From contig JABIGL010000112.1 of assembly GCA_018650185.1 (NCBI GenBank), positions 1-64,000 of the forward strand: a stretch of 64,000 nt of DNA, written 5' to 3'. The stretch is from Chloroflexota bacterium. GTDB lineage: Bacteria; Chloroflexota; Dehalococcoidia; Lucifugimonadales; Lucifugimonadaceae. Shown piece after piece: positions 22,995 to 40,075 of the stretch (positions are counted from its first letter, which is position 1; every line of letters begins with the position of its first letter). Under the pieces are notes generated by a model. It did no database searches. It had not been told where the DNA came from and saw only the letters and a list, made by a program, of their open reading frames with translations. The translations under genes and the position numbers were made by a program.

Positions 22995-23024
22995 TTGACG
23001 CGGCTGGCCTTTATTCCACATAAT
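22995..23024 (+). promoter_or_regulatory. Sigma-70-like promoter of the terminase-portal operon
   Basis: TTGACG (22995-23000), an 18-bp spacer and CATAAT (23019-23024). The -10 element is followed after one base by the 14-bp palindrome at 23026, placing an operator over the transcription start. The first gene begins about 50 bp downstream. Inferred from sequence; no start site mapped. Confidence 0.6.
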
Positions 23025-23025
23025 C

Positions 23026-23039
23026 AGAACATATGTTCT
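23026..23039. promoter_or_regulatory. Perfect palindromic operator AGAACATATGTTCT (LexA/Cheo-box-like), site 1
   Basis: A perfect 14-bp palindrome with the GAAC-N4-GTTC core of Gram-positive type LexA boxes. The surrounding 20 bp (23022-23041) differ from the site at 33758-33777 at two positions only. Its place just behind the -10 element is where a repressor would block transcription. LexA as the binder is inferred. Confidence 0.62.
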
Positions 23040-23076
23040 ATTACCAGATAGGGCAGTGCAAGTAGAGGAGATGCAG

Positions 23077-23250
23077 GTGGGTGAAGTCGAATCGGATTTT
23101 GGCAGGGCTGCGACTCAGCGTCTGCCGTCGATGGCGTGTCTGAGATGCGGTGGGATTGACACGTTCCGGTTGGAAAAGGCGCGGTCGCAGGCGAACACCT
23201 GTTTCCGGTGTCGCGGTTGTGGCCACATCTTCAGCCCCATCGGTGACTGA
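23077..23250 (+). CDS. Small zinc-ribbon protein heading the packaging operon
   Basis: A 57-residue protein with two CxxC pairs (CLRCGG and CFRCRGCGH, about 27 residues apart), a zinc ribbon. Zinc-ribbon proteins of this size often sit in phage packaging operons, possibly as DNA-binding or small-terminase helpers, but no function can be read here. I chose the GTG at 23077 because GAGGAG stands 6 bp before it. Earlier in-frame starts are GTG 23056 and ATG 23071, the latter too close to the same ribosome-binding site. It overlaps the terminase start by 8 bp, so the two are co-translated. Confidence 0.62.
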   Translation: MGEVESDFGRAATQRLPSMACLRCGGIDTFRLEKARSQANTCFRCRGCGHIFSPIGD

Positions 23251-24646
23251 GCGCCTGGTGACGATTTCAGCGGCGAAGACCCGGGAATCAGACTGGGCGG
23301 GCGACCCGGCCGGGTTTGTTCGGGATGAGCTTGGTGCGCAACTCTGGGAATCTCAGATCGAGATCATCGAGGCCATTCGGGACCACGTGCGGGTCGCTGT
23401 GCGCTCGTGTAACGGTTCGGGCAAGACCTACGTGGCCGCGCACGTCGTGCTGTGGTGGCTGATGGCGTTCCCGGAATCCATGGTGATCACCACTGCGCCT
23501 ACCGAACGACAGGTCCGAGAGGTCCTGTGGCGGGAGATCCGTCGCGCGTACCGCGGTAACGAAGAACTGATCGACGGCAAGTTGACGCGCACTGCCCTCG
23601 AGATAGGCGACAAGCACTACGCGTATGGCCTGTCTACGAACGAATCCGAGCGGTTCCAGGGCTATCACGAGGGCAACATCCTTTTCATCGTGGATGAGGC
23701 GTCCGGTATGCGAGAGGACATTTTCGAAGCGATTGAAGGCTCGATGACCTCCGCGGGCGCGCGCTTGCTGCTTCTCGGCAACCCCACGGCACTTGGCGGG
23801 ACCTTCTACGAGGCGTTTCATAGGCGGCGGGACCTGTGGCACACATTGCACATATCGGCCTTCGACACGCCGAACGTAAAGTCGGGTCGGATCGATGTGC
23901 CGGGGTTGGTCAGCCCGCAGTGGGTGAAAGACGCCGCCCTGAACTGGGGCGAAGACAGCCCGATGTACGAGGTGCGAGTACTCGGCGATTTTCCGTCCGA
24001 GGGCGAGGATTCGTTGATAGCGCTGCGGTTGATAGAGGCGGCGGTGGTGCGCGACACGCCTCGTGCACCCGGCACCCCGGTCCTGCGAGAGCTTCAGGGC
24101 GGACCTGTGGAACTGGGCGTCGACGTCGCCCGTTTCGGCAACGACAAGAGCGTTATTTGTGCTCGCCAGGGGGGTCGTGTCCTGTGGCTAGAGGCGTTCA
24201 GCATGCAGGACACGATGGCGACAACTGGTCGTGTGGTGGCGGCGGTGGCGAGGTTGGCCCCCGACGTGGTGACGGCGGTGAGGGTGGACACGATCGGAAT
24301 TGGCGCGGGGGTCGTTGACCGCCTGCGTGAGCTTGGGGTTGCGGGCGTTGTTGCGGTGAACGTCTCGGAACGCGCCCGTAACCCTGAGCAGTTCATGAAC
24401 CTGAGGGCGGAGCTTTTCGACGGGCTCAGGCAAAGATTCCAGGAAGGCCGGATTCAGATTCCTGACCATCCTGACCTGGTGGCCGAGCTATCGTCTCTCC
24501 GCTATTCATTCACGAGCAGTGGACAGATTCGACTCGAAAGTAAAGACGTATTGCGATCACATGGGATCGCCAGTCCGGATCACGCTGATGCCCTGATGTT
24601 GGCATTTGCATCGACCGGGGCTTCCCGATTCAAGGCGTGGACGTAG
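23243..24646 (+). CDS. Phage-type terminase large subunit (packaging ATPase/nuclease)
   Basis: A 467-residue large terminase, the motor that pumps DNA into the procapsid through the portal and cuts it. ATPase motifs: Walker A SCNGSGKT (55-62), Walker B ILFIVDEASG (146-154, catalytic Glu in DE), and coupling motif LLGNP (178-181). The RNase-H-fold nuclease follows: GVDVARFGND (Asp294), VRVDTIGIG, and a C-terminal HADALM with the last acidic residue. All key residues are present, so it looks functional. The start is GTG 23243; the frame is open further upstream but inside the zinc-ribbon gene. Portal follows two genes later. Confidence 0.92.
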   Translation: MTERLVTISAAKTRESDWAGDPAGFVRDELGAQLWESQIEIIEAIRDHVRVAVRSCNGSGKTYVAAHVVLWWLMAFPESMVITTAPTERQVREVLWREIRRAYRGNEELIDGKLTRTALEIGDKHYAYGLSTNESERFQGYHEGNILFIVDEASGMREDIFEAIEGSMTSAGARLLLLGNPTALGGTFYEAFHRRRDLWHTLHISAFDTPNVKSGRIDVPGLVSPQWVKDAALNWGEDSPMYEVRVLGDFPSEGEDSLIALRLIEAAVVRDTPRAPGTPVLRELQGGPVELGVDVARFGNDKSVICARQGGRVLWLEAFSMQDTMATTGRVVAAVARLAPDVVTAVRVDTIGIGAGVVDRLRELGVAGVVAVNVSERARNPEQFMNLRAELFDGLRQRFQEGRIQIPDHPDLVAELSSLRYSFTSSGQIRLESKDVLRSHGIASPDHADALMLAFASTGASRFKAWT

Positions 24647-24661
24647 AGGTGGAGGACGGCG

Positions 24662-24892
24662 ATGGCGAATAGGCGACTTGTGTGCGGGCTATGCGAATCG
24701 GTGACTGATTTCGCGGTGCCGCAGCGCTGTGCGCACATCGTTGTGTTGCATGCGGTTCTCGATCATGCGGTGGAGATGCCGCCTATCGAGTGCTCCGTGC
24801 GGCGGGTTTCGCCGTCGGGACGTGCGAGCTGGTGGCTTCCGGACGGTCGTGAATGGTTGATCGAGTGGGCGAATGAGGGATTCCAGCTCTGA
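24662..24892 (+). CDS. Small conserved-looking protein between terminase and portal, unknown
   Basis: A 76-residue protein with an ATG preceded by GGAGG. It has three Cys and one His early (VCGLCE, RCAH), which might form a metal site, and a C-terminal WWLPDGREWLIEW rich in Trp. I recognise no family. It lies 15 bp after the terminase gene and 50 bp before portal, so it is part of the packaging operon. Possible roles, all inferred, are a small-terminase substitute or portal-associated factor; no HTH of the usual small terminase is visible. Confidence 0.6.
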   Translation: MANRRLVCGLCESVTDFAVPQRCAHIVVLHAVLDHAVEMPPIECSVRRVSPSGRASWWLPDGREWLIEWANEGFQL

Positions 24893-24942
24893 GGCGTGAT
24901 TCGTTTTGGGCTGGTACGGGTATGTGAGCGAGGGGTGGACGA

Positions 24943-26229
24943 ATGGGTGCGGCTACGACGTTGATGGAACTGGTGCGAGCGGGCGCACGTGTGGCGGGAC
25001 AGGTACTGCTGGCCAGGTCTCGGGCGGATGCACGGGACACCGTCGAGCGATCGAACAGGGCTTCGCGGGTGCTGGTGGATCAGATAGGTGACGACATTAC
25101 GGGGTTCGGCGGGTCGCAGACGATGAGTCGTTACGGCGACTTCTACTCGACCTCCGCGGCTGTTCACGCTGCGGTACGGGTGCGTGCGAGTGCGGTGGCT
25201 CGTCCGCCGTTCCGGGTGCAGGAGGTCGGGGCAGATGGAGGTGTGTCGCCGGTCGGTGCGGGTCATCCGTTGCAGGTGTTGCTGGACCACCCGAACCCGT
25301 TCTGGACGCCGAGCGAGATGTGGCACGCCACCGAGACCTACCTATCGCTCTGGGGCTCCGCGTTCTGGGGGCTTGAGCGTGATGAGTCTGGTGTTGTGAC
25401 TGAAATCTGGCCGCTCCGGAGCGATCGGGTTCGGGTATTACCGGACGACAAGTCGTACGTGCGCGGCTTCGTGTACGAGCACGCTGGCAAACGTGTGGCG
25501 TACCTGCCGGAGGAGGTCGTGTGGTTCAAGCACTTCAACCCGGTGGACGAATTTGCGGGCGTGTCTTCCATTGCACCTTCTCGTGCGGCCATCGAGATGG
25601 CGTCCTCGGCTCTGCTGTTCAACCGATCGTTCTTCAGCAACTCGGCCACGCCGTCAGATCTTGCGATCACGACGGCCGAGACGCCGACGGATGAGCAGGT
25701 GCAGGAGTTTTACGAGCGCTGGGAGTCACGGTTCGCCGGTGCCAGCCGGGCGCACCGGCCGCTGGTGCTGGGCCAGGGCATGGATGCCAAACGGCTCGGG
25801 TTGTCACAGCGTGAGATGGAGTTCATCGAGGCGCTGAAGTGGTCGGTAGAAGAAGTTGCGCGTGCGTTCGGCGTGCCAAAGGCATTCCTGGGCGACCTGC
25901 AGGAAGCAACGCTCGCCAACATCGACACCGAGGAGCGGTTTTTGTGGCGGAACACCATCGTCCCGGAGCTACGGTTGCTTGAGGACGCGGTGAATCGGAC
26001 ACTCGCGCCCATGTTCAGAACGCCCGGCGGCCCGGAGCTAAAGGCACAGTTCGATCTGAGCGCCATCGAAGCCCTGCAAGACTCGGAAAACGAACGTGTG
26101 GACCGGTTGGTGAAGCTGGTTGGCGCAGGCGTGCTGACGGTGAACGAGGTGCGCGCTGGCCGCGGGCTCGGGCCGGTGGACTGGGGTGACGTACCGGCGA
26201 GCCAGCGTGAGGGTGTCGCTTCGGTGTAG
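24943..26229 (+). CDS. HK97-family phage portal protein
   Basis: A 428-residue portal, the dodecameric ring at the head vertex through which DNA enters. Recognisable blocks are AAVHAAVRVRASAVARPPF near residue 70, the HPLQVLLDHPNPFWTPSEMW segment, LYLSLWGSAFWGLERDE-like core strands, FNPVDEFAGVSSIAPSR, and the C-terminal VEEVARAFGVPKAFLGD and AEEF-like helices. The whole length matches HK97 portal (about 400-430). Bases before the ATG read GAGGGGTGG, a good ribosome-binding site. It ends the first operon; in most phages the protease and capsid genes would follow directly, but here they lie 7.6 kb away. Confidence 0.92.
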   Translation: MGAATTLMELVRAGARVAGQVLLARSRADARDTVERSNRASRVLVDQIGDDITGFGGSQTMSRYGDFYSTSAAVHAAVRVRASAVARPPFRVQEVGADGGVSPVGAGHPLQVLLDHPNPFWTPSEMWHATETYLSLWGSAFWGLERDESGVVTEIWPLRSDRVRVLPDDKSYVRGFVYEHAGKRVAYLPEEVVWFKHFNPVDEFAGVSSIAPSRAAIEMASSALLFNRSFFSNSATPSDLAITTAETPTDEQVQEFYERWESRFAGASRAHRPLVLGQGMDAKRLGLSQREMEFIEALKWSVEEVARAFGVPKAFLGDLQEATLANIDTEERFLWRNTIVPELRLLEDAVNRTLAPMFRTPGGPELKAQFDLSAIEALQDSENERVDRLVKLVGAGVLTVNEVRAGRGLGPVDWGDVPASQREGVASV

Positions 26230-26301
26230 ATCCGGGTGATGTTAGAGCGTCCCGGGCCCGTGCGGTTGTGTCACCGCGGTTGAACGGGGCATACTCGGGG
26301 C

Positions 26302-27459
26302 GTGCTAATTACCGATTCCCGTGACCTCGCCGCGTTTTGCAAGCGGCTTGAGGGCGCTCCCTACGTTGCAGTAGACACCGAATTCCTCAGAGAGAAGACC
26401 TACTGGCCGAAGCTGTGCCTCGTGCAGGTCGCGTATGACGACGAGGCGGCAGCGATCGACCCGCTGGCGAAGGACATCGACCTCGATCCGCTGTTCAACT
26501 TGATGGACGACGAGTCTGTCTTGAAGGTGTTTCACTCGGCCTCGCAGGACATGGAAGTGTTCTTCAGCGTAGCCGGGCGGGTCCCGGAACCGGTGTTCGA
26601 TACACAGGTCGCCGCAATGGTGGCCGGGTACGGCGAGCAGGTCGGATATGCCACCCTGGCCGCGCAGATCGCCGGTGTCACGTTGGACAAGTCATCGCAG
26701 ATCACCGATTGGTCGATCCGACCGTTATCAGACCGCCAGATTGCCTACGCCCTGGGCGATGTGACGCATCTCTGCACCATTTACGAAGAGCTTGACGAGC
26801 GGCTCGAAGAGAGTGGTCGCATTTCGTGGGTTTCCGAGGAGATGGCGGCGCTTACGGACACCTCTTCCTACAACGCAGACCCCAATCTGGCGTACCGGCG
26901 TGTCCGGATTCGTCGACCCAGTCGCAAGGTGCTCGCTATTTTGCGTGAGATCGTTGCCTGGCGCGAGGAGACGGCACAACGCCGGAACCTCCCCCGCAAC
27001 TGGGTGATCCGGGACGATGCGCTGGTGGAGATAGCCACGCACGCCCCTAAAAACGTAGCGGACCTCAGTCGTGTGCGTGGTCTGCGCGGTAACGCCGCAA
27101 AGGGCCGTGACGGTGAGGCGCTGCTGAAGGCGGTTCAGCGTGCGTTGGATATGCCGCAAAGTGAGTGGCCGGAGATCCCGCCACGACGACCCCCGATCCG
27201 GGGTCACGAGGCGCTGGTGGCGCTGCTTCAGACGCTGCTACGGCTACGATGCGAGGACAACGACGTCGCAACGAAGTTGGTGGCGACGCGTGAAGAGCTT
27301 GATCGAATCGCTACGACCGATGATTCAGATCTGAGGCCGTTGCAAGGCTGGCGGTACGAGTTGTTTGGCAAGGATGCGCTTGAGATGAAGGCCGGGCGAC
27401 TAGGGCTGACGGGCGACCGTGGCCAGGTACGTGTGCTGAGGCCAGACGAGCTGGACTAA
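26302..27459 (+). CDS. rnd: Ribonuclease D (DEDDy 3'-5' exoribonuclease with HRDC)
   Basis: A 385-residue RNase D, which trims the 3' ends of tRNAs and other stable RNAs. The exonuclease motifs are VDTEF (Asp25, Glu27), HSASQD (Asp83) and the DEDDy motif YALGD (Tyr149, Asp153). An HRDC domain follows from about residue 205 (REIVAWREETAQRRNLPRNWV). The GTG start is 72 bp after the portal stop on the same strand, so it could be read from the packaging promoter. It is a normal bacterial housekeeping gene and the first gene of the block that interrupts the phage-like modules. Confidence 0.93.
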   Translation: MLITDSRDLAAFCKRLEGAPYVAVDTEFLREKTYWPKLCLVQVAYDDEAAAIDPLAKDIDLDPLFNLMDDESVLKVFHSASQDMEVFFSVAGRVPEPVFDTQVAAMVAGYGEQVGYATLAAQIAGVTLDKSSQITDWSIRPLSDRQIAYALGDVTHLCTIYEELDERLEESGRISWVSEEMAALTDTSSYNADPNLAYRRVRIRRPSRKVLAILREIVAWREETAQRRNLPRNWVIRDDALVEIATHAPKNVADLSRVRGLRGNAAKGRDGEALLKAVQRALDMPQSEWPEIPPRRPPIRGHEALVALLQTLLRLRCEDNDVATKLVATREELDRIATTDDSDLRPLQGWRYELFGKDALEMKAGRLGLTGDRGQVRVLRPDELD

Positions 27460-28005
27460 CCCCAGTGGGGCGCTTATTTTGACGATCTTATTGGTGAACG
27501 CGCGCGTCTGTGGTGACTAACTGTCGTAGGGGAAGCCGCCCCCTCACCCCTGCCCTCTCCCGCGTGGGGAGAGGGGGCAAATTCAAGTCACTGCAATCGG
27601 ATTCTGCCCGCATCAAGGCTGTACACGACGTCTTAGAGAAGTACATGTAGGGGCGGATTCGTATCCGCCCTCGGTTGTGTTGAGACCATGCTTGAATTCA
27701 AAGCAACAACTGCCTCGTCATCCTGAGCCGGGGCGAAGGATCCCCCGGCTTTTCACTCAGCATCTTGATCGTGTCCGACTCGACCATTTGGCGAGCGGCG
27801 TTCGTCAGGAATGTGACTGTTTCTGCCACATTCGCCCGCCACTCAAGGGCCTCAGGGTGGGTTCGATTGGGTGAGGAGGTGGCGCTATTAGCCGTTTAGG
27901 GGCGGATACCTCGGCGTTTGACCCTTCCGGGACGTGTGCCCTCGGTCCTTGCCTGCGACAATGGCGCTCGTTTACGGACACACGCATCTCGGAGGCCGAC
28001 CGTCG
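27460..28005. repeat. Repeat-rich intergenic stretch
   Basis: About 545 bp without a credible gene. It contains the CTCACCCCTGCCCTCTCCCGCGTGGGGAGAGG-type hairpin (about 27542-27573), the GGGCGGATTCGTATCCGCCC palindrome (27651-27670), a CATCCTGAGCCGGGGCGAAGGATC element (about 27719-27744), a GGGCCTCAGGGTGGG element (about 27846-27860) and a half GGGGCGGATAC (about 27900). The frame of the following gene is open to 27934 but that part looks like repeat and leader. Confidence 0.65.
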
Positions 28006-28770
28006 ATGGAACCCAGGGTTCACGTCAGCGATGAAATTCTTGAGCGGTTTCGGCGCGTCACGTCGGCGACCGTTTACAGCGCCGTGTGGCGGCACCCGGT
28101 GGAGGGTGCCGAGTGGTTCGCCTCGGCCAACTGGCAGCGTTGCCTGATGAAGAACGTCAAGCCGATGACACACGGAAAGACGATGGTCGGACGTGCACGG
28201 ACGCTCAGGTTCGTTCCTCCCCGGCCTGACTTGCTGGAGATCACACGGCAAGGCGAAAACTCGCCGGAATACATAGCGATGGGAACGTGTGGGCCGGGCG
28301 ACGTGCTGGTTGTTGAGGCGCACGCCGCAGAGCCAGAAGCCAATATCGTCGGCAACATGAAGGCCCGCCAACTATGGCACAACGATGCTGTTGGGATCGT
28401 CACCGATGGCGGCATCCGTGATCTGGACATGATCCGAGACGACTACGGCCTCGATATTTTTGCCGGACACCGTTCACCAGCCGGGAATCTCCCGTGGATC
28501 GAGGCGTACGAAGCGAACGAGGCCATCAACTGCGGCGGCGTTCTCGTGCTCCCGGGTGATGTGATCGTCGGAGACGACGACGGTGTGGTGGTGGTGCCGA
28601 GTCAGCTTGCGGAGGGTGTGATCGACTGGATCGAGGAGCAGGACAAGGCGGAGGAGTTTGTGATCGGGTTGATTGACGAGGAAAAGGCACCGCCCGGTCG
28701 CTACTATCCGATATCCGAGGAAACGAAGGAGCGCTACCGACGTTGGGCCGAGGAGCGTGGCGAGGCGTAG
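28006..28770 (+). CDS. RraA-like protein (RNase E regulator / HMG aldolase fold)
   Basis: A 254-residue RraA-family protein. The family signature is present: YSAVWR near residue 25, GRARTLRF, GPGDVLVVEA, and the metal/substrate region TDGGIRDLDMIRD. Members either bind RNase E or, more often, are class II pyruvate aldolases (4-hydroxy-4-methyl-2-oxoglutarate aldolase type), with Arg and Asp in the GGIRD motif. In this catabolic genome the aldolase role is more likely. The ATG at 28006 has GGAGG 10 bp upstream. A longer C terminus (PPGRYYPISEETKERYRR) resembles other Chloroflexota homologues I know, but that is impression only. Confidence 0.84.
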   Translation: MEPRVHVSDEILERFRRVTSATVYSAVWRHPVEGAEWFASANWQRCLMKNVKPMTHGKTMVGRARTLRFVPPRPDLLEITRQGENSPEYIAMGTCGPGDVLVVEAHAAEPEANIVGNMKARQLWHNDAVGIVTDGGIRDLDMIRDDYGLDIFAGHRSPAGNLPWIEAYEANEAINCGGVLVLPGDVIVGDDDGVVVVPSQLAEGVIDWIEEQDKAEEFVIGLIDEEKAPPGRYYPISEETKERYRRWAEERGEA

Positions 28771-28799
28771 CCCACCAGGGGGAGATCAGGGGGTTCGGG

Positions 28800-28855
28800 T
28801 TGGATGAACTTCTCCCTCACCCTAAGCCTCTCCCGCTGGGAGAGGGGACTTTCTG
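28800..28855. repeat. Dispersed CTCTCCCGCTGGGAGAGG repeat
   Basis: TTCTCCCTCACCCTAAGC followed by CTCTCCCGCTGGGAGAGG, nearly the same as the copy at 5.28 kb. Hairpin between the RraA-like gene and the following two-gene unit. Confidence 0.7.
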
Positions 28856-28876
28856 AAACAGGGAGGTAATCGACAC

Positions 28877-29047
28877 ATGGAGACTATATTTTCGTCAGAG
28901 CATCCGCCGAAGACGATGGAGATTGAACGTACAGATGATGACCGGCTGCGACTGGTGATATCGCTGTCCAAGCTCGGGCAGACAACGATTCTTGAGTATT
29001 TCCTGGATGATGCCGACGTCGAATCACTCAAGAAGGCGCTGGGCTGA
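28877..29047 (+). CDS. Small 56-residue protein coupled to the next gene
   Basis: A short acidic/basic mixed protein with a strong GGGAGGT ribosome-binding site 9 bp before the ATG. It shows a beta-rich N-terminal half (RLRLVISLSKLG) and an acidic helix (LEYFLDDADVESLKKALG). Its stop TGA shares a base with the ATG of the following gene, so translation is coupled. I recognise no family. The strong signals and coupling argue that it is real despite its size. Function unknown. Confidence 0.55.
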   Translation: METIFSSEHPPKTMEIERTDDDRLRLVISLSKLGQTTILEYFLDDADVESLKKALG

Positions 29048-29727
29048 TGGCGGGTGGTCCTTCGAGTGGCTCAGGAAGCGCAGATTCGGGTGGTAGCGGT
29101 CCAGCCGCGGGCGGATTTGGCGCGTCGCTCAAGGGAGGGTCTGGGTCATCGCTGTTCTGGAGCGAGGTGACCGTGCCGGGTCGTCCACGCGTTCTAGTTC
29201 TGGACGCGGTCGAAGATCGAGATGGCTGGGAGGCGGAAGCGACCGCACACATTGCCAACAGCCTGACTCGCAGGGACATCCCGGTGATCGGAAAAGCGCC
29301 GATACCTGTATCCGGGCGAGACGACATCGCAGCGGCGATCAAGTCGGCGGACGACTTCAACTGCATTTTTCTGACGACCCGCGCTGACGGGTCGACATCG
29401 GCTGCCGAATGCTGGCTGGCCCTTCAAGACATACTCGCCGGTAGTTCAAAGCTATTTGCGATGTGCACCTGGGATTCGGCCGATCCTGAGATCGCCAACT
29501 CAGCCCTAAAAGATGAAGGAACATTCGCTCCCGTGGCCGTAGTACAACAGGAGCCGATGTCCGGGCGCGGCGCGAGCCTATTCTTCATGAAGTTCTTTGC
29601 CGAGCTGGACATGCACTCAGAGGCGACCGAATCGATGACCGGCAAGATGGTGTGGTTCGGCCACTCCAAGGCCCGAGAAATCATGCGAAGACGGCACTAC
29701 GAAGGCAGAGTCGGGTTGCGATCTTGA
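29047..29727 (+). CDS. Unknown alpha/beta protein with Gly/Ser-rich N terminus
   Basis: A 226-residue protein. Residues 1-35 are a flexible Gly/Ser-rich linker. The remainder has an alternating strand-helix pattern (PRVLVLDAV, IPVIGKAPIPV, CIFLTTRAD, KLFAMCTWD, FAPVAVVQQEP) resembling a Rossmann-like or CHAT/TIR-like sensor domain, with a conserved-looking FFMKFFAELDM helix. I do not recognise the family; CHAT-like is a weak guess, since no clear His/Cys dyad can be picked. Translation is coupled to the 56-residue gene before it. The next gene starts 10 bp later, so a longer operon with the MBL hydrolase is likely. Confidence 0.6.
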   Translation: MAGGPSSGSGSADSGGSGPAAGGFGASLKGGSGSSLFWSEVTVPGRPRVLVLDAVEDRDGWEAEATAHIANSLTRRDIPVIGKAPIPVSGRDDIAAAIKSADDFNCIFLTTRADGSTSAAECWLALQDILAGSSKLFAMCTWDSADPEIANSALKDEGTFAPVAVVQQEPMSGRGASLFFMKFFAELDMHSEATESMTGKMVWFGHSKAREIMRRRHYEGRVGLRS

Positions 29728-29737
29728 AGGGATCCCA

Positions 29738-31569: not shown

Positions 31570-31595
31570 TTAAATCGGGTGGAGCAAGCCCCGCC

Positions 31596-32768: not shown

Positions 32769-32873
32769 CGGGACTCCGTAAGGGGGTATTCAGAATTTGG
32801 GAATAAACGCGTGAATATGGCGGCGAATCCTACAACGCCTGTTAGCGTCCGCGAAGAGGATCCGGCCAACGAG

Positions 32874-33635
32874 TTAATTTGAAGTAAGCGGCTCTTCCGA
32901 CTCGAGCGCTCCGTGTTCAGCCGCTAGCAGTCCCTGTTCGTCCATCTGGCGTGCGGCGTACACGATCACCCCGGCGGCGTATTCCAGGCTGACTTCTGAT
33001 GTGTTCAGCATGAAGTGATACAGAAAAGGGTCGACGGGATTCGAGTCAAAAGCCTTTTCAAAATAGCGGGCCTGCGCCAGGTCGGAGTGTTCGATCAACT
33101 CTCGTGCTGATTCAAGGCTTTCAAGTTGCTCACGTTGCTGTATGCGCTTCGCCCGGTCTTCCTTTTCGCCAAGCAGCCCGACCCTGAGCACGCCCGTCGT
33201 GCCACGCAAGATCGCGCCACCACCCCTGCTGAGGATCACCGCGTCACCGGCGGCCGCGATCTCACGGATTACTTCGGACGTCGTGTCGATGAACTGTGAC
33301 TCGTGAAGCTCTTCGGCGCGGGTTGCTGGTGCGGCCTCAAAGTCTCGGTAAGGCCGTGAAACCAGGACTTCCATCCCGGGGCCGAAATACGGATCACCGG
33401 CTCCGGCACTTCCGGTTCGTTCCAGCGTTCTCTGGATGAAGGAGATGAAGCGGTCGCCACGAGAAGGTAGTCGACGTTCAGAGTCCTGAACGGCCTCGAC
33501 GGTGGCGCCCACGCGCCGACCTATCTCGGAGAGTAGAAGTCGGTCGACGAAGTCCAGCTCTAAGGCTTTAGCAACCAGGCGGCCTACTCCAGGCCCGCCA
33601 GCGCCGACTCGTCCCTCGATAGTAATAACCGGCAT
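32874..33635 (-). CDS. Cytidylate kinase-like protein (CMK2 family)
   Basis: A 253-residue nucleotide-kinase-fold protein. The P-loop reads GRVGAGGPGVGR (about 8-19), in place of the usual GxxGxGK-T/S, as in the PF13189 cytidylate kinase-like family, where the Lys is missing or replaced. A second block, VILSRGGGAIL, matches that family too. These proteins are thought to phosphorylate nucleotides or act as membrane-transport associated kinases; function is poorly known. The ATG lies 196 bp from the start of the prohead-protease operon, with the two genes divergent and the second operator between them. Confidence 0.8.
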   Translation of the reverse strand: MPVITIEGRVGAGGPGVGRLVAKALELDFVDRLLLSEIGRRVGATVEAVQDSERRLPSRGDRFISFIQRTLERTGSAGAGDPYFGPGMEVLVSRPYRDFEAAPATRAEELHESQFIDTTSEVIREIAAAGDAVILSRGGGAILRGTTGVLRVGLLGEKEDRAKRIQQREQLESLESARELIEHSDLAQARYFEKAFDSNPVDPFLYHFMLNTSEVSLEYAAGVIVYAARQMDEQGLLAAEHGALESEEPLTSN

Positions 33636-33726
33636 ATGACCCCTCCCTTGGTACGAAGATCAGGTGTCGTTGGAAGGGTAACAGGTAGCAGCAAAAAGGT
33701 CGTCTTCGATTGGTGTCCGCCGGATA

Positions 33727-33760
33727 TTGACGATTACGGAGATGCCGACTACTCTTTAAT
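33727..33760 (+). promoter_or_regulatory. Promoter region of the capsid operon
   Basis: A TTTAAT element (33755-33760) lies exactly one base before the palindrome, as CATAAT does at the first operon. The TTGACG at 33727-33732 is 22 bp upstream, too far for a normal -35; a weaker TACTCT at 33750-33755 would give 17 bp. The -10/operator geometry is conserved, the -35 is uncertain. Confidence 0.45.
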
Positions 33761-33761
33761 T

Positions 33762-33775
33762 AGAACAAATGTTCT
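33762..33775. promoter_or_regulatory. Palindromic operator AGAACAAATGTTCT (LexA/Cheo-box-like), site 2
   Basis: Same GAAC-N4-GTTC palindrome as at 23026, with one central mismatch. In the 20-bp window 33758-33777 only two bases differ from 23022-23041. It precedes the capsid operon by about 55 bp. Shared operator means shared regulation of both phage-like modules; the regulator is inferred. Confidence 0.6.
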
Positions 33776-33831
33776 ATAGGCTTTTATAAAGACAAGAACA
33801 AGAAGTTGGACGGGAAAGCAGGGAGGGGCGG

Positions 33832-34542
33832 TTGACGAAAACGGTGGAGGCTGGAGGAGACGTGACGGTTGATTCCGGGCTCGTGACGAAGTGGTTCTCG
33901 GTACGAGCGGTGGAGGGGGACGGTGCGGACCTCAGCCCGGATGTTGATGGCGGGCACGAGAAAATAGAAGACGGGCCACTGACGCTTATTGCGTCTACGA
34001 GTCAGGAAGACCGCGCCGGTGATGTCGTTAGCGCTTCCGGGTGGGACCTGACGGCTTACAAGGCGAACCCGGTATTTCTCTGGGCACACGACTATCGACG
34101 GCCGGCCATCGGCAAGTGCGTAAAGGTGTGGGTCCAGGACGCGAGCGACGGCGGACGCCTAATGGCGAGCATCGAGTTTGCGCCGACGCCCTTTGCACAG
34201 GAAATTCGGTCGTTGTACGCGGCTGGATTTATGCGCGGCGTATCGGTCGGGTTTCGGGCCATAGAGATGGAGCCGAGGACCGGGTCGTCGGGTCGCAGAG
34301 GTGTTCTATTTAAGCGACAGGAGCTACTTGAGATCAGCGCAGCCCCGGTCCCGGTGAACGCCGGGGCCCTTGTGCGGGCGGGAGTCTCCGAGGACGCCGG
34401 GGTTCCCGCTATCTCTGAACCGGCAGACTCGCCGGAAATCCGGGGAGTCCGAGATGAGATACGGGAGTTCTGGGGAGTGCTTGCCGACCTGACGGGCGGT
34501 GAGCGGAAGTCAGTTGAAGCAGACAGTGTGGGGGAGAACTAA
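33832..34542 (+). CDS. HK97-type prohead protease (peptidase S78)
   Basis: A 236-residue prohead maturation protease. The catalytic His86 lies in FLWAHDYRRPAIG and Ser138 in MRGVSVGF, both in family-typical contexts; ELLEISAAPVPVN (about 164-176) closes the fold. It cleaves the capsid delta domain during head maturation. The start is TTG with GGGAGGGG upstream. About 30 residues precede the core, and the C-terminal 50 residues are acidic and without recognised domain, perhaps an internal scaffold. The capsid gene starts 3 bp after the stop. Confidence 0.9.
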   Translation: MTKTVEAGGDVTVDSGLVTKWFSVRAVEGDGADLSPDVDGGHEKIEDGPLTLIASTSQEDRAGDVVSASGWDLTAYKANPVFLWAHDYRRPAIGKCVKVWVQDASDGGRLMASIEFAPTPFAQEIRSLYAAGFMRGVSVGFRAIEMEPRTGSSGRRGVLFKRQELLEISAAPVPVNAGALVRAGVSEDAGVPAISEPADSPEIRGVRDEIREFWGVLADLTGGERKSVEADSVGEN

Positions 34543-34545
34543 ATC

Positions 34546-35844
34546 GTGACGACACGCGAACTGGAATCGATCAGCAAAGAGATCGCCGAGGTATCGGCAT
34601 TCGTGAAGGAGCACGTCGCTCCGCTCGCAGAAGAGAGGGCGCGTCTCCACGACGCCGTGTCCGGGCTGGCGCGGAGTGCAAGGGATTCGCAGCGGCGGTC
34701 CCTCCTTGGCGGTGAGGGCCGGAGCGTTGTGGACGCCGGTCCCTACGCCGGATGTGACGCACTGGACCTGGCTATCGTGCGCAGCCTCCATCGAGCGGCG
34801 CAGGCCCACGGCGGCGGGTCACATGTTGAGGATTGGGGCGTTCGGCTCCGTGCCGCGATGGATTCCGTCACAAGCGGATCCGGTGACGAACTTGTCCCGA
34901 CCGCCGAGGCCAACGAGTTGTGGCGCGACGTGAACCTGGACACCGTCGTAGGGTCCCTGTTCAGTCGGATCGACATGCCGACCTCGCCGTTCGACATCCC
35001 TCTCCAGCTGGGTGACGTCAACTGGTACCCGGGCACCGAGAACACGGCCACCACCACGACGGCGCTCTCCACGGCCAAGCAAACGCTTACAGCGCAGGAA
35101 CTTGTGGCCGAAGTTCCCTGGTCACTGACTCTTGAGGAAGATGCGGTGATCGCGATGCTTCCAGAGGTTCGGCGATCGCTTGTGCGGAACTCGGCTGAAG
35201 TGATCGACGACGTCCTGCTGAACGGCGACACCACCGCACTGAACAACATCAACGCAGATGGCACGACAATCGCCGCCACCACGGCGGGCAAGGCGCAGTG
35301 GTTGATCGGGTTCGACGGCCTCTTGCACCTGCCGCTCGTGGACAACACCTCACAGGGCAACTCACTCAACGGGAACGTGACGGCAGCTAGCTATAACTCT
35401 GCATTGAAGCTGATCGGCAAGTACGGGGTGCGACCGACCGAATCGCCCTTCATCGTTGACGTGAACACCTACCTTGCATCGCTCGCCATCGACGAGGTCG
35501 AGACGGTCGATAAGCTCGGCCCGAAGGCGTCACTCCTGACCGGCCAGTTGGGCGTGCTTTACGGCCACCCGGTGATCGTGTCGGAGCAGATGCGACTGGC
35601 GGATACGGACGGCAAGGTGACGGATGCTGGCAACTTGACCAACACGGGCCGGATCCTGGTCGTGAATCGCAGCCAGTGGCGCATCGGATTCCGCCGTGAG
35701 CTGTCGATCGAGACCGAGCGTGACATCCAGAAGCGACAGAACGTGATGGTCGTGAGCATGCGGGTTGCGTTCGATGAACGGTCCGGGAACCGTTCGACGG
35801 CGACCCACACGGCGCTCCAATACAACATCACCGGCGTGGCGTAG
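34546..35844 (+). CDS. HK97-fold major capsid protein
   Basis: A 432-residue HK97-type capsid protein. Residues 1-about 95 form a charged, mostly helical delta domain expected to be removed by the protease. Then follow the E-loop/N-arm and P-domain pattern, including LQLGDVNWYPGTENTATTTTAL, LTAQELVAEVPWSLTLEEDAV and LPEVRRSLVRNSAEVIDDVLLNGD. The A-domain contains PFIVDVNTYLASLAI and LYGHPVIVSEQM. GTG start with GGGGAG. Intact and full length. It would form the shell of the particle. Confidence 0.92.
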   Translation: MTTRELESISKEIAEVSAFVKEHVAPLAEERARLHDAVSGLARSARDSQRRSLLGGEGRSVVDAGPYAGCDALDLAIVRSLHRAAQAHGGGSHVEDWGVRLRAAMDSVTSGSGDELVPTAEANELWRDVNLDTVVGSLFSRIDMPTSPFDIPLQLGDVNWYPGTENTATTTTALSTAKQTLTAQELVAEVPWSLTLEEDAVIAMLPEVRRSLVRNSAEVIDDVLLNGDTTALNNINADGTTIAATTAGKAQWLIGFDGLLHLPLVDNTSQGNSLNGNVTAASYNSALKLIGKYGVRPTESPFIVDVNTYLASLAIDEVETVDKLGPKASLLTGQLGVLYGHPVIVSEQMRLADTDGKVTDAGNLTNTGRILVVNRSQWRIGFRRELSIETERDIQKRQNVMVVSMRVAFDERSGNRSTATHTALQYNITGVA

Positions 35845-35975
35845 ACGGCAGCGGCGGGCCCTGCCGGGCGGCTATTTGGGGTGGAGTAGTCCCCGGTAGG
35901 GCATTTATCTGGGTTGGGGTCGCCATTCCAGAAGAACTACTACTGAGTCTCTGATGAAGACGTGGAGGGGCATGT
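35845..35975. other. Spacer between capsid and decoration-like genes
   Basis: 131 bp without gene. It has two GC-rich partial dyads (GGGCCCTGCCGGGCGG and TCCCCGGTAGGGCA) that may form an attenuating hairpin downstream of the highly expressed capsid gene. The next ribosome-binding site GGAGGGG is at about 35963-35970. Confidence 0.4.
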
Positions 35976-36257
35976 ATGCCACTAAAGACGATCAGCAAAA
36001 CCGTGACTCTCGCAGGTACGGCGGAGCGTTTGAGTTCCACAGACCTGCTTGTCTGGTGGGCCAGGGTGAAAGCCAAGACCGCTAACGCCGGGACCGTGTA
36101 CCTGGGCGACGCAACGGTTTCGAGTAGCGACCCGGGACTCGTGGCTGACGACACTATCGAGCTACGGGGACATCCAAATCTGAACCTGTACGACGTCTTT
36201 GTGGATGCCGGGACCTCTGCCGAAGGGGTCGATGTCTGGTACCTGGAGTACGCGTAG
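35976..36257 (+). CDS. Small beta-rich protein, candidate capsid decoration protein 1
   Basis: A 93-residue protein predicted to be all beta. Pattern: VTLAGTAERLS, VKAKTANAGTVYLGDATV, LVADDTIELRG, YDVFVDAGTSAEGVDVWYLEY. It aligns by eye with the following gene's product in the TANAG-x-VYLGD and VDA-x-N/T-G positions, so the two are paralogues. The position directly after the capsid suggests a head-decoration (cement) protein. No family recognised. Start ATG preceded by GGAGGGG. Confidence 0.6.
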   Translation: MPLKTISKTVTLAGTAERLSSTDLLVWWARVKAKTANAGTVYLGDATVSSSDPGLVADDTIELRGHPNLNLYDVFVDAGTSAEGVDVWYLEYA

Positions 36258-36318
36258 CAGTAAATTCAGGCACACAGGAAATTGGATCCGGCATCAGCCG
36301 GTGAGGGGTTGAGGTGAG

Positions 36319-36600
36319 ATGGGGCTTCCTATCGGGACGGTAACGGTGGCGGCGGCTGGTACGCGGGTCCAGGTGGTGACATCCGGAAACGCGGTGTCAG
36401 CCGTGAGCTTTCGGGCGCGTGGGACTAACACCGGCGCCATATATGTAGGCGACGACAGCGTGGCCGCCGGAGACGGGTACGAGATAAATCCGGGGGACGA
36501 GCTGACGGTTCGCTTCCGGGAGTTGATAGACCTGCGTCGCTTTTATGTGGATGCCGCTAACAACGGAGACAAGGTGGATTACGCGGGGGTGGCGGCATGA
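36319..36600 (+). CDS. Small beta-rich protein, candidate capsid decoration protein 2
   Basis: A 93-residue paralogue of the previous gene's product, of the same length. It repeats the scheme V-A-A-A-G-T, TNTGAIYVGDDSV, INPGDELTVRF, FYVDAANNGDKVDYAG. The stop overlaps the next start by 4 bp (ATGA). A tandem pair after the major capsid gene fits two decoration or head-fibre proteins; the alternative is a head-tail joining role. Not recognised as a family. Confidence 0.6.
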   Translation: MGLPIGTVTVAAAGTRVQVVTSGNAVSAVSFRARGTNTGAIYVGDDSVAAGDGYEINPGDELTVRFRELIDLRRFYVDAANNGDKVDYAGVAA

Positions 36601-37991
36601 CGGACTCGGGTGTGGAGTACCGGACCAACCCCCGGTTCAACCCGGACAACGTGTCGATCAGGTTCGGTACCGGCGGCGACTCAAGTCTGTTTTACGACGG
36701 CGCTGATCTGATCGTCACTCCGGCCGTTGTCGGAACCGGAGATCTCAAGGTTATCGGTGCAAGCCTCTTGCTTGATTCTGCTGAGCAGATCGATTTCGGG
36801 GCTGGCGATGTGACCCTGTCCCATGCAACTGGCAAGTTGACGATGACCGGCGGGGACCTTCATGTCGTGGACGGTGATGGCGTCGTCATCGGCCATAGTG
36901 CGCAGGGTGTGGTGGCCGGGGTCACTCCGGAGTTCCAGATACTTGGGGACACGGCCGGGACCGATGTGAACCTCGCTATCGTTGCTTATACGGGCGCAAA
37001 TGCGAATAACGGCTCGATCTACTTCGGGAAGTCCCGAAGTGGAGTCGTGGGAACACCGGGTACCGCATTAGTTGCGGACGATCGGCTCGGGCAGATCGTC
37101 TTTCTTGGAGATGACGGCACTGATATGGCATCGGCCGGTGCGCGCATCACCGTCGCCGTAGACGGCACACCCGGCTCCAACGATATGCCGGGTCGGCTCA
37201 TCTTTGAGACGACTGCAGACGGTGCCTCCACCGTTACGGAACGGATGCGGATCGACTCGGCGGGTGGGGTGTTCATCGGCGACAGCTCCAATAACGGTAT
37301 GACGACCGGTCTCACGATCAACCAGGGAGTAAACGACGACAAGATTTTCGCTCTAAAATCCAGCGAGGTTGCTCACGGATACACGGATCAGTCAGAGACG
37401 GATAGCTGGTTCAACATCTCAAAGTCGAGCGCGACTCTGGGTGGTGCGCACGTTCAGGTGATCGGAGAAGATGACTCGCTTCCCCGCGTTCTCCGGTGGA
37501 CAGTCGCCGGTGGGACCGCTGACACCACCAAAACCACGGCCGGAGTCGGACTGGTCAACTTCGATGTCCGTGAGCATGACGGGGCTAACGCCGTCGCAAA
37601 CGTTACGGCCGATGGAAACGTGTTTGTCGTGCAGGCGCGGGTTGGGGGCGCAACGCTAGCGCGCTTTCTTGTAGACGAGGACGGAGATATGTACTCCGTC
37701 ACCGCCGGGCAGACTTTCGACGATTACGACGATGTTGCGCTGATTGAGGCGTACGACCACGTTCGTTCGGGCGATGCGGCTTTCGAGATTAAATCGGAGT
37801 TCGGCAAGTTCGCATATGCGAATGAAGCGGCTTTGATCGATGCCGGAGTTTTAGGCGGGTCCATAGCTGATGGTGGATTGACCAACCAGACGCAGTTGAT
37901 TCGTGTGTTGACGGGTGCGGCACGACAACAGGCCACCCGCATTCGTCAGCTTGAAACCCGGGTATCCGGATTACTTCCGGTGGGAGATTAG
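36597..37991 (+). CDS. Long beta-structured fibre-like phage protein
   Basis: A 464-residue protein rich in Gly, Asp, Thr and Val, with short repeated strands typical of phage fibres. It contains SSLFYDGADL, TERMRIDSAGGVFIGDSSNNG (a spelling common in phage tail fibres and bacterial adhesins) and a C-terminal helical, possibly coiled-coil, segment (QLIRVLTGAARQQATRIRQLETRVSG) that could trimerise it. It is encoded between capsid-associated and connector genes, an unusual place for a tail fibre, so it may decorate the head. Translationally coupled to the upstream gene. Receptor unknown. Confidence 0.65.
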   Translation: MTDSGVEYRTNPRFNPDNVSIRFGTGGDSSLFYDGADLIVTPAVVGTGDLKVIGASLLLDSAEQIDFGAGDVTLSHATGKLTMTGGDLHVVDGDGVVIGHSAQGVVAGVTPEFQILGDTAGTDVNLAIVAYTGANANNGSIYFGKSRSGVVGTPGTALVADDRLGQIVFLGDDGTDMASAGARITVAVDGTPGSNDMPGRLIFETTADGASTVTERMRIDSAGGVFIGDSSNNGMTTGLTINQGVNDDKIFALKSSEVAHGYTDQSETDSWFNISKSSATLGGAHVQVIGEDDSLPRVLRWTVAGGTADTTKTTAGVGLVNFDVREHDGANAVANVTADGNVFVVQARVGGATLARFLVDEDGDMYSVTAGQTFDDYDDVALIEAYDHVRSGDAAFEIKSEFGKFAYANEAALIDAGVLGGSIADGGLTNQTQLIRVLTGAARQQATRIRQLETRVSGLLPVGD

Positions 37992-37993
37992 AG

Positions 37994-38203
37994 ATGCCTA
38001 CGATTGGTTTTACGTTCTCGACGACCAACGCTGCCTTACTCAGGGAGGCGCTGGCCCATCACCAGGGTGTTGATGTGGGCGGTATTAGCGACACAGACGT
38101 CAAGGAGTTCGCTGGCCGTCACTTGAGGGGACTGGTGCAAAGGTACCGCGCCTCTCAGCGTGATTCGGAAAATCCACTGGATACAAGCGATCCGCTGGTT
38201 TAG
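37994..38203 (+). CDS. Small unknown protein of the capsid operon
   Basis: A 69-residue protein starting 2 bp after the fibre stop. It is polar and helical after a short N terminus (ALLREALAHHQGV, VKEFAGRHLRGLVQRYRASQRD). I recognise no domain. Probably a small structural or assembly protein by position. Confidence 0.5.
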   Translation: MPTIGFTFSTTNAALLREALAHHQGVDVGGISDTDVKEFAGRHLRGLVQRYRASQRDSENPLDTSDPLV

Positions 38204-38255
38204 ACGAACTTAGAGAAGCTGATATTTGCTGGTGGAAGTGAAAAGTGGGGACGGA

Positions 38256-38594
38256 ATGAAGTTTGAAGATCACCTGAAAGAGTTCCTGGACAACTCGATA
38301 GACGATGAAGAAGCGAGGCAGCTAGCGATAACGGCGGTTGCGAGCAGTATCCGGCAACTCAAGCTGGGAGTTGCTGAACGACTCTGGCATGCAAGACAAC
38401 TGGGTACCGAGGATGTAACGGCCAGTGCGGTTGCGCTTGGAACGGCGCGTTCAATCAAGCGACGTTTCGATGTCGCGATGTGTGAGTACCAGCGGTTGAT
38501 TGGTGCCCCATCTGAGGTAGCGGAGTTGCACGTGATACCCGGTGGACGACTGGACAGGTCGGACGCATCGAGTGCCCCGGAAGGGGGTGCCTGA
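38256..38594 (+). CDS. Unknown helical protein of the capsid operon
   Basis: A 112-residue protein, largely helical (ARQLAITAVASSIRQLKLG, ASAVALGTARSIKRRFDVAMCEYQRL) with an unstructured Pro/Gly-rich tail. ATG 38256 has GGGGACGGA upstream and is preferred over an in-frame TTG at 38226. Not recognised. Its position just before the head-tail connector suggests an assembly or portal-adjacent role, which is inference only. Confidence 0.5.
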   Translation: MKFEDHLKEFLDNSIDDEEARQLAITAVASSIRQLKLGVAERLWHARQLGTEDVTASAVALGTARSIKRRFDVAMCEYQRLIGAPSEVAELHVIPGGRLDRSDASSAPEGGA

Positions 38595-38596
38595 GC

Positions 38597-39460
38597 ATGG
38601 TCACAACTACTACGGCACCCGTCGGTGTGATCAACACCTATGCCGGTCCCGACACGCTCAAGCTGCGGGCTGGAATTACCGGCTCTACGCAGGAGTCACT
38701 GCTCTGGCTGGCGTTGTATGGCGCAAGTCGTGCGGTCGATCGATTTTGCAATCGTCACTTCTTCGTACTGAATCAGACGAGGAGGTTCGATGTAGAGCAT
38801 CCGGACAAGTTGCCGGTGCCAGACCTGGCTACGATTACGACGATTCGTGAGGATGCCGACCGTGACCGGGTGTTCGAGCTGAGCCTGACCTCGGACCAGT
38901 ACCTGCTCTACCCGCTGAACGCCAGTCCAGACCGGCCATGGGGTCGGCCATATTCAAGCATCCACGCAGATCCTCACGGGACACACCCTGCGTTCACCGT
39001 GGGACGAAGGACGATAGAGATCGATGGCGACTGGGGATTTCGCTGTGTCCTGCAGGACACGGGAGTTGACCTGAACGTTGGTGCGCCACTCACCGCCACA
39101 GCGACCTCCGTCACCGATGGGGCTTTGGTCGCGCCGGGCGCGACGTTGCGTATCGAGCAGGAGCAGGTGTTTGTACGGCTCGTCGCCGCTAATGTTTTGA
39201 CGGTCGAGCGCGGCGTCAACGGCACAAGCGCGGTTACTCACGCCGATGGCACAGACCTGATGGGAATGACCTACCCGGCGGCGGTGAGCGAAGCGACGTT
39301 GCTGGTAGCCGGGCGATTGTTCTCTCGCAAAGACAACCCGATGGCGGTCACGGCAGGGTCGTACGGGCTCGGAGCACCAGATACACATGCGGCTATCGAC
39401 CCTGATGCTGGACGGCTGCTAAGTGCGTTGCGCCGAATGCCTATCGGCGTAGCGAGCTAA
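38597..39460 (+). CDS. Head-tail connector (gp6-like) protein with C-terminal extension
   Basis: A 287-residue protein whose N-terminal 110 residues have the gp6-like connector pattern: LRAGITGSTQESLLWLALYGASRAVDRFCNRHF with a helix bundle before the strand-rich part, common to DNA-packaging/adaptor proteins of HK97-like phages. Typical adaptors are about 100-190 residues; here an additional beta-rich region (VDLNVGAPLTATATSVTDGALV and so on) is inserted or appended, and a last helix (SEATLLVAGRLFSRKDNPM) follows. It would sit below the portal. Follows the previous stop by 2 bp. Confidence 0.7.
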   Translation: MVTTTTAPVGVINTYAGPDTLKLRAGITGSTQESLLWLALYGASRAVDRFCNRHFFVLNQTRRFDVEHPDKLPVPDLATITTIREDADRDRVFELSLTSDQYLLYPLNASPDRPWGRPYSSIHADPHGTHPAFTVGRRTIEIDGDWGFRCVLQDTGVDLNVGAPLTATATSVTDGALVAPGATLRIEQEQVFVRLVAANVLTVERGVNGTSAVTHADGTDLMGMTYPAAVSEATLLVAGRLFSRKDNPMAVTAGSYGLGAPDTHAAIDPDAGRLLSALRRMPIGVAS

Positions 39461-39467
39461 CCGCGCT

Positions 39468-39839
39468 ATGAGTCTTAGTTCCATCAAGGCTTCGATTGTG
39501 AACGCGCTGGATACCATTTCGGGCCTCAAGGTTTATGACCATGACCCGGGAACGGTAGAGGAGTTACCGGCGGTGGTGGTTTCTCTGGACGGTGCGAACT
39601 ACACCGATCTCAGCTTCACGTTCCGGCTGGTCCTGCTGACAGATTCGTGGGACGGCTCGGAGCAGGAGGCGGCGCTGCTGCCGTTCCTGGAGGCCTCAGG
39701 TGCGTCCAGCATCTGTGGGTTGCTAAATGCTGATCCGGGATGTGTCACGGTCGACGCTGCGGGGATCGGTAAGCATCGGTTTGCGGGCGTCGACTACCGC
39801 GGCGTCGTGATCAGTGTGACCGCGCGGGACGTACCTTGA
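39468..39839 (+). CDS. Tail-terminator-like / neck protein
   Basis: A 123-residue alpha/beta protein: an N-terminal helix (SIKASIVNALDTISGLKVYD), two central strands (LPAVVVSLDGANYTD, FTFRLVLLTDS), a helix, and a C-terminal strand (VISVTARDVP). This order resembles phage tail-terminator/neck proteins that close the head-tail junction. It is the only part of the locus that hints at a tail. The stop shares one base with the next ATG. Confidence 0.6.
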   Translation: MSLSSIKASIVNALDTISGLKVYDHDPGTVEELPAVVVSLDGANYTDLSFTFRLVLLTDSWDGSEQEAALLPFLEASGASSICGLLNADPGCVTVDAAGIGKHRFAGVDYRGVVISVTARDVP

Positions 39840-40075
39840 TGCGAGGCCGGAATGGTGACTCGTCGCGCAGACGAAAGCATGCGCGCCGGAGTGAGGGAGA
39901 CGAGCGATACGGGCGCATTAGGGCCGATCTACGATCGCTTCGGAAGACGGTAGAGAACGATCATGATCACCGGTTGCGTCGTATCGAGACAGATCTCAGG
40001 TGGGTGATCGTCTTACTGGGCGGGCAGGTCGTCGCACTGGTGGGCGCAGCCGTTACCGGAGTGATGAGCGGTTAG
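39839..40075 (+). CDS. Small coiled-coil membrane protein (XhlA/holin-like)
   Basis: A 78-residue protein with a very basic, charged N terminus (about 1-33), a heptad-like helix (RADLRSLRKTVENDHDHRLRRIETDLRW) and one C-terminal transmembrane segment (VIVLLGGQVVALVGAAVTGVM). This architecture matches XhlA-type proteins that accompany phage holins. If the system releases particles by lysis, this is the only candidate seen; no endolysin is nearby. Convergent with the next gene and overlapping it by 4 bp. Confidence 0.55.
   Translation: MRGRNGDSSRRRKHARRSEGDERYGRIRADLRSLRKTVENDHDHRLRRIETDLRWVIVLLGGQVVALVGAAVTGVMSG

Follow-up and report, generated by a model that had tools for sequence, protein, structure and literature searches.

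A dispersed caudovirus head and packaging system with shared LexA-type operators in SAR202 Chloroflexota, probably an ancient domestication

How do apparently intact phage head and packaging genes come to lie in two separate operons among the cellular genes of a SAR202 bacterium, and what could keep them there? The element that raises this question spans positions 22,995 to 40,075 of a 64,000-nucleotide stretch of contig JABIGL010000112.1 (assembly GCA_018650185.1; the whole stretch is referred to below as the window), from a member of the Chloroflexota family Lucifugimonadaceae, order Lucifugimonadales, whose 3.08-Mb genome is here called G000. The answer that we consider probable is that the two operons make up a caudovirus particle system that SAR202 bacteria domesticated long ago, that is dispersed on the chromosome, has been placed in this family under the control of the host LexA protein, and resembles a gene transfer agent (GTA) as far as the packaging step. 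The system should not be given the name GTA until particles and transfer have been shown.

The first part of the answer lies in what the operons encode. Their genes, all on the forward strand, were assigned from Pfam and PHROGs profile matches and from conservation in relatives, and these matches, together with those to solved structures, indicate that the element derives from the head and packaging genes of a caudovirus. Operon A (23056-26229) opens with a zinc-ribbon protein (23056-23250), the conserved first gene of this operon across the family, which has weak PHROG matches, stands where a small terminase subunit is normally encoded and may act as one. It is followed by the large terminase subunit, TerL (23243-24646; phrog_2, 3e-43), a genus-specific 76-amino-acid protein with no assigned function (24662-24892) and the portal protein (24943-26229; PF04860, 6e-75), whose profile finds its best match among solved structures in the RcGTA portal (E=1e-37). 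TerL likely starts not at 23150 but at a GTG at 23243 that overlaps the zinc-ribbon stop codon. Operon B (33832-40075) begins with a prohead (S78) protease (33832-34542; PF04586, 3e-7; phrog_617, 8e-28) and an HK97-fold major capsid protein (34546-35844; PF05065, 9e-11; phrog_10). Two 93-amino-acid paralogues come next, small beta-type virion proteins that are conserved in the operon (35976-36257 and 36319-36600), the first of which may decorate the head, and then a fibre (36597-37991; phrog_18345, 4e-25), whose alignment combines a conserved N-terminus with a fast-evolving C-terminus and which probably binds a receptor. A 69-amino-acid protein conserved in relatives (37994-38203) and a conserved 122-amino-acid protein (38226-38594), predicted by AlphaFold to form a helical hairpin and nothing further (pLDDT 80), precede the head-tail adaptor (38597-39460; phrog_442, 5e-12, and alignment) and the tail-terminator or neck protein (39468-39839; phrog_17840, 4e-8). 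The operon closes with a basic coiled-coil protein of 79 amino acids (39836-40075), present in several genera, whose single C-terminal membrane helix has a conserved hydrophobicity peak of about 2.1 and which is putatively holin-like.

The earlier claim that the terminase, portal, protease, capsid, connector and terminator genes are intact is thus confirmed by the profiles and by catalytic motifs: full-length copies of TerL keep the Walker A/B motifs and the nuclease aspartates, and the His and Ser motifs of the protease are invariant in full-length copies. The list of head and packaging genes given at the outset also stands, but the fibre, the 79-amino-acid protein and the zinc-ribbon gene have to be added to it. 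As first described, the operons are set apart by 7.6 kb of cellular genes, identified as RNase D (PF01612 with HRDC), an RraA-like protein, a protein of metallo-beta-lactamase fold, a trypsin-like protease, an MR/MLE enzyme and a cytidylate kinase-like protein. Also as first described, neither operon holds an integrase, repressor, replicase, tape measure or endolysin recognisable with Pfam or PHROGs; no replication, integration or excision genes were recognised in the operons or between them, and nothing convincing emerged among direct repeats as att sites. An intact prophage, which would combine integration, replication, tail and lysis modules in one contiguous genome, is rejected. As a separate observation, two sister species (G030 and G028; L066 and L067) have long in-frame insertions, derived from repeats, in the TerL linker that joins the ATPase domain to the nuclease domain.

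The second part of the answer concerns the promoters. Operon A is preceded by a sigma-70-like promoter (22995-23024, forward strand; TTGACG at 22995-23000, an 18-bp spacer and CATAAT at 23019-23024) and by the 14-bp dyad AGAACATATGTTCT at 23026-23039, while the operon B promoter (33727-33755, forward strand; TTGACG at 33727-33732, a 17-bp spacer and TACTCT at 33750-33755) is followed by the near-identical 14-bp dyad AGAACAAATGTTCT at 33762-33775. These boxes have the form AGAAC-N4-GTTCT and overlap a TTGAC promoter. Within the window, the dyad pattern with up to two mismatches gave four strand-matches, all at boxes A and B, where 0.69 would be expected, and the exact 12-mer of site A has no second copy in the 3.08-Mb genome. 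The arrangement is conserved: at every aligned operon A promoter the box follows TTGAC by 30-33 bp, as it does at lexA, and at every aligned operon B promoter by 35-37 bp, and the same layout of promoter and box is found at at least 22 operon promoters from four genera of the family. Both operons keep their boxes also in genomes that carry them on separate contigs or in opposite orientation, and the box with its TTGAC is retained where operon B itself is gone (G040 and G050).

The same box form marks host genes of the SOS response. It stands before lexA as AGAACATTAGTGC, just after the -10 element, in six genomes of four genera, and upstream of the DUF72/imuB-like operon in relatives, while the recA box reads AGAAC-N4-GTGCT in every examined genome of genera g1, g8 and g11 (including G053 and G054); in g8 the operon B box has exactly this recA-type form, AGAACATATGTGCT. 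Genus g2 has no such box at either the element or recA, and its LexA is divergent. The listing of the SOS regulon is not exhaustive and covers the boxes examined in this and related genomes. Because the box form is shared with recA, lexA and the imuB-like operon, and the promoter layout with lexA, we conclude that the sites are predicted LexA sites and that both operons belong to the host SOS regulon. The near-identical 20-bp palindrome reported earlier at both operons therefore holds as a shared dyad, but its core is 14 bp, and a private phage-type operator is ruled out, the box being that of the host. Three further occurrences of such boxes were recorded: CGAACATTTGTTCG, a LexA-like box a short way ahead of a comM/YifB-like gene (L143:4931-4944; G000:C51:10930-10943), a possible link between SOS and DNA uptake; tandem LexA boxes, spaced by about 20 bp, that separate cinA from an uncharacterised gene and are conserved in two genera (L129:7058-7091; L123:4775-4807; L124:4706-4738); and the LexA-like box AGAACGTATGTTCT within a multi-copy repeat at contig ends (L130:3112-3491 and L131:5691-6071; G000:C113 and C126).

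Outside the family, many of the operons are preceded by a conserved leader hairpin rather than a LexA box. This hairpin, RGGGAC[AT]GACC...GGTC[TG]GTCCCY followed by a U-run, lies directly before protease-capsid operons and a few terL or portal operons. It was located upstream of the protease at L298, L300, L304, L306, L308-L310, L312, L314, L316, L320, L322, L329, L330, L332 and L333, before the portal operon of G095 (L443:18894-18946) and before the terL operon of G137 (L447:17126-17172). Five of its 15 base pairs show changes on both sides, few matches occur elsewhere across the 1.3 Mb scanned, and the three loci tested gave no Rfam match. It is possibly an attenuator or anti-termination site.

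Whether such a system has been retained or is simply being shed can be judged from its distribution and inheritance. The preliminary description had proposed that a domesticated system should show conserved synteny, a phylogeny matching that of the host and ratios of nonsynonymous to synonymous substitution (dN/dS) well below 1 for terL, portal and capsid, and that mixing with free phages, frequent frameshifts in relatives or absence from close relatives would speak for something else. Both operons are kept across genera. Among 76 genomes of the family the portal was found in 27, TerL in 24 and the capsid in 17; the operons are spaced by about 3-25 kb or lie on different contigs, in G070 they are on opposite strands, and in genus g2 the portal has its place within the capsid cluster with terL about 107 kb away (G007). 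At the level of the order, the portal profile matched 89 of 250 genomes, spread over 35 of 97 genera and no fewer than 14 families, almost always in single copy. In complete genomes of other families the terL-portal and protease-capsid groups are again apart, by 5 to about 20 kb in three of the ten regions read; the remaining seven have no capsid gene less than 20 kb from the portal. In some relatives the operons are more than 100 kb apart. When 84,980 species were scanned for the capsid, 45 loci came back, every one from a record titled Chloroflexi, Chloroflexota, Dehalococcoidia or SAR202, and the capsid relatives in SAR202/Dehalococcoidia loci are 57-92% identical. Beside these stand extra, solitary terL paralogues with no other head genes, among them G072:C170 (L389:4557-6541), G070:C25 (L391), G053:C62 (L393) and G003:C44 (L395); at least one such paralogue is preceded by a LexA box and TTGAC promoter.

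Trees of portal, TerL and capsid group each genus as the RecA tree does, and close pairs agree. In within-genus pairs with G000, where high dS makes the values approximate, dN/dS was 0.13-0.16 for terL, 0.13-0.17 for the portal, 0.03-0.07 for the capsid and 0.09-0.10 for the adaptor, so that terL, portal and capsid, at 0.03-0.17, are about as low as neighbouring host genes (0.03-0.10). The 76-amino-acid protein, 84-92% identical within the genus, gave 0.03-0.08, the first small beta-type protein 0.02-0.05 where estimable, and the fibre 0.27-0.46. Judged by these trees and ratios, the element is vertically inherited and its genes are maintained by selection.

Nor was a close free phage found. 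Among the matches listed for named phages, identities are about 25% for the capsid, 32% for the portal and 41% for TerL; portals found with the portal profile in the IMG/VR collection of viral contigs are at most 32% identical, and no close portal was found in either set. Of the IMG/VR contigs with a close capsid, many are short, several have host genes on their flanks, and one (L185) is identical to the window locus. The low portal identities and the host flanks lead us to reject a free-virus origin of the close relatives, although a few of the close-capsid contigs may be viral. One of these is L197 (IMGVR_UViG_3300030606_000067), a 16-kb contig with relatives of the adaptor, portal, protease and capsid together with a tyrosine-recombinase-like gene, possibly a mobile relative. 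A siphophage fragment with a full tail module in G004 (L161-L163; G004:C29, 57 kb) has a capsid 46% and a portal 39% identical to those of the element, and is a useful outgroup.

Several observations weigh against a maintained particle system, the first of which concern the tail. In other families of the order, operon B extends further, with genes for a major tail protein and for a conserved product about 680 amino acids long. The model of the latter (pLDDT 76) looks like a phage baseplate hub to which a domain similar to a carbohydrate-binding module has been added. A homologue of this hub was not significant in 13 genomes of the window's family, phrog_10528 and PF10145 (tail tube or major tail protein, and tape measure) gave nothing convincing in 12 of the 13, and no endolysin was recognised in the operons. 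The clear matches to both tail profiles lie on a 6359-bp contig of G000 (C95; L352), which encodes a major tail protein and a 1471-amino-acid tape measure, is unmatched in relatives, and probably belongs to a separate phage, though it is possibly a source of tails for the element. A hidden tail operon under the same box was found neither among the boxes examined in this and related genomes nor with three tail probes. Sister families thus keep the tail tube and hub, whereas in this family such a tail-like end would have been lost, replaced or relocated. Losses of the operons themselves form the other points on this side. The close relatives G026, G031 and G029 are without the operons, with G026 and G031 retaining only fragments in the same neighbourhood, so that some neighbouring species live without the system; genes are frameshifted, interrupted by stops or broken in G044, G049, G054, G056 and G069, with operon A degraded in G044; and G040 has lost operon B while keeping operon A and the operon B box. 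Two of the refuting conditions named earlier, frameshifts in relatives and absence from close relatives, therefore apply in part. We take the pattern to mean that an old system was lost several times over, not that a single decay set in recently, and keep to a domesticated system because order-wide retention and purifying selection outweigh the losses. As a co-regulated particle system, the element is well supported by the conservation of both operons, the LexA boxes, the trees and the low dN/dS.

How such a system might work can be sketched from these features. LexA would occupy the boxes at both promoters and hold the element silent, a step for which the sites themselves argue strongly. On DNA damage, active RecA would lead to cleavage of LexA, and both operons, to judge by the shared box, would be switched on at the same time as recA and the imuB-like polymerase operon. 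A head would then be built from capsid, protease, portal, adaptor and terminator, and TerL, with its intact catalytic motifs, would fill it with DNA, the zinc-ribbon protein possibly guiding TerL in place of a normal small subunit. The packed DNA would most likely be host chromosome, because the element has no recognised replication, excision or integration genes and its loci are dispersed. Release might follow from cell death, perhaps helped by the holin-like protein, with the fibre attaching particles to siblings that receive DNA after damage; release and delivery are both speculative, and no tail genes were found in the family.

A bolder version of the same idea, which we hold only tentatively, sees a new, independently domesticated, order-wide lineage of GTA type in SAR202 whose dispersed operons changed their control between families, with LexA boxes in this one and a shared leader hairpin in others, and which in the window's family is tail-less, SOS-induced heads releasing DNA of damaged cells for uptake by competent siblings; uptake by competence enters because comM carries a LexA-like box. 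That the head genes were co-opted for something else, SOS-induced DNA-filled heads serving altruistic lysis, interference with phages or release of damaged DNA with no delivery, seems unlikely. The tail genes not found in the family, the SOS control, the extra solitary terL copies, one with a LexA box, and the retention of operon A without operon B in G040 would all fit such a use, but the complete portal-adaptor-terminator neck and the diversifying fibre suggest particles that meet other cells, and in sister families a tail tube and a baseplate hub that includes a sugar-binding fold are retained beside the capsid. Simple decay of an ancient prophage, with remnants intact by chance in some species, is strongly disfavoured. 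The pseudogenes, deletions and absences in several relatives and the missing tail and lysis genes are what it would predict; however, remnants under no selection would have lost their integrity over divergence of this depth, and purifying selection, conserved LexA-box promoters at both separate operons, single-copy presence in 35 genera of the order and a split arrangement in several families rule it out as the principal explanation. Very improbable, finally, is a satellite like the capsid-forming phage-inducible chromosomal islands (PICIs), packing its own DNA and borrowing helper-phage tails: head, packaging and neck genes with no tail, phage tail genes on one contig of the same bin and the recombinase-like gene next to portal and capsid in L197 would suit it, but the element is vertically inherited, has no integrase, excision or replication gene, and with cellular genes between its operons, more than 100 kb in some relatives, forms no single excisable island.

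Set beside known systems, the domesticated particle system proposed here has partial counterparts. The PBSX-type defective prophages of Bacillus are likewise induced by DNA damage and pack host DNA, as is proposed for the element, but each is a single uninterrupted prophage-like block that includes tail and lysis genes. Capsid-forming PICIs share the possession of head and packaging genes with no tail, but are single integrating islands with an integrase and a regulator. RcGTA and RcGTA-like elements (Rhodogtaviriformidae) resemble the element in their vertically inherited head and packaging genes, purifying selection and want of replication and integration genes; the element differs in having LexA boxes directly at both operons and no tail genes found, and in belonging to another phylum with distant sequences, and no named RcGTA capsid was among the solved-structure matches of the capsid profile at E<0.01. 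One report ties LexA to GTA-related control in a related alphaproteobacterium (PMC6473078). A parallel in layout is BhGTA (VSH-1) of Brachyspira (Brachygtaviriformidae), which has a dispersed genome with terL outside the structural cluster, is induced by DNA-damaging agents and has co-diversified with its host (PMC9662315); compared here by description only, it is unlike the element in that it has been shown to carry host DNA, has a tail and an endolysin, and belongs to another phylum.

Formally recognised GTAs have three independent origins, in alphaproteobacteria and spirochaetes (PMC9662315), and no paper describing a GTA in Chloroflexota was found in a literature search, so that, as far as the searched literature shows, a GTA-like system is new for the phylum. 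SAR202 bacteria have been cultivated (PMC10444878), and the idea may be testable in them. The locus also offers a comparative case of the capture of phage genes by a host, in which dispersed operons came under one operator and genus g2 lacks this operator and the recA box together. SAR202 is an abundant lineage of the dark ocean, and an order-wide particle system in it would, if true, amount to a large unseen route for DNA exchange or for SOS-triggered lysis at sea.

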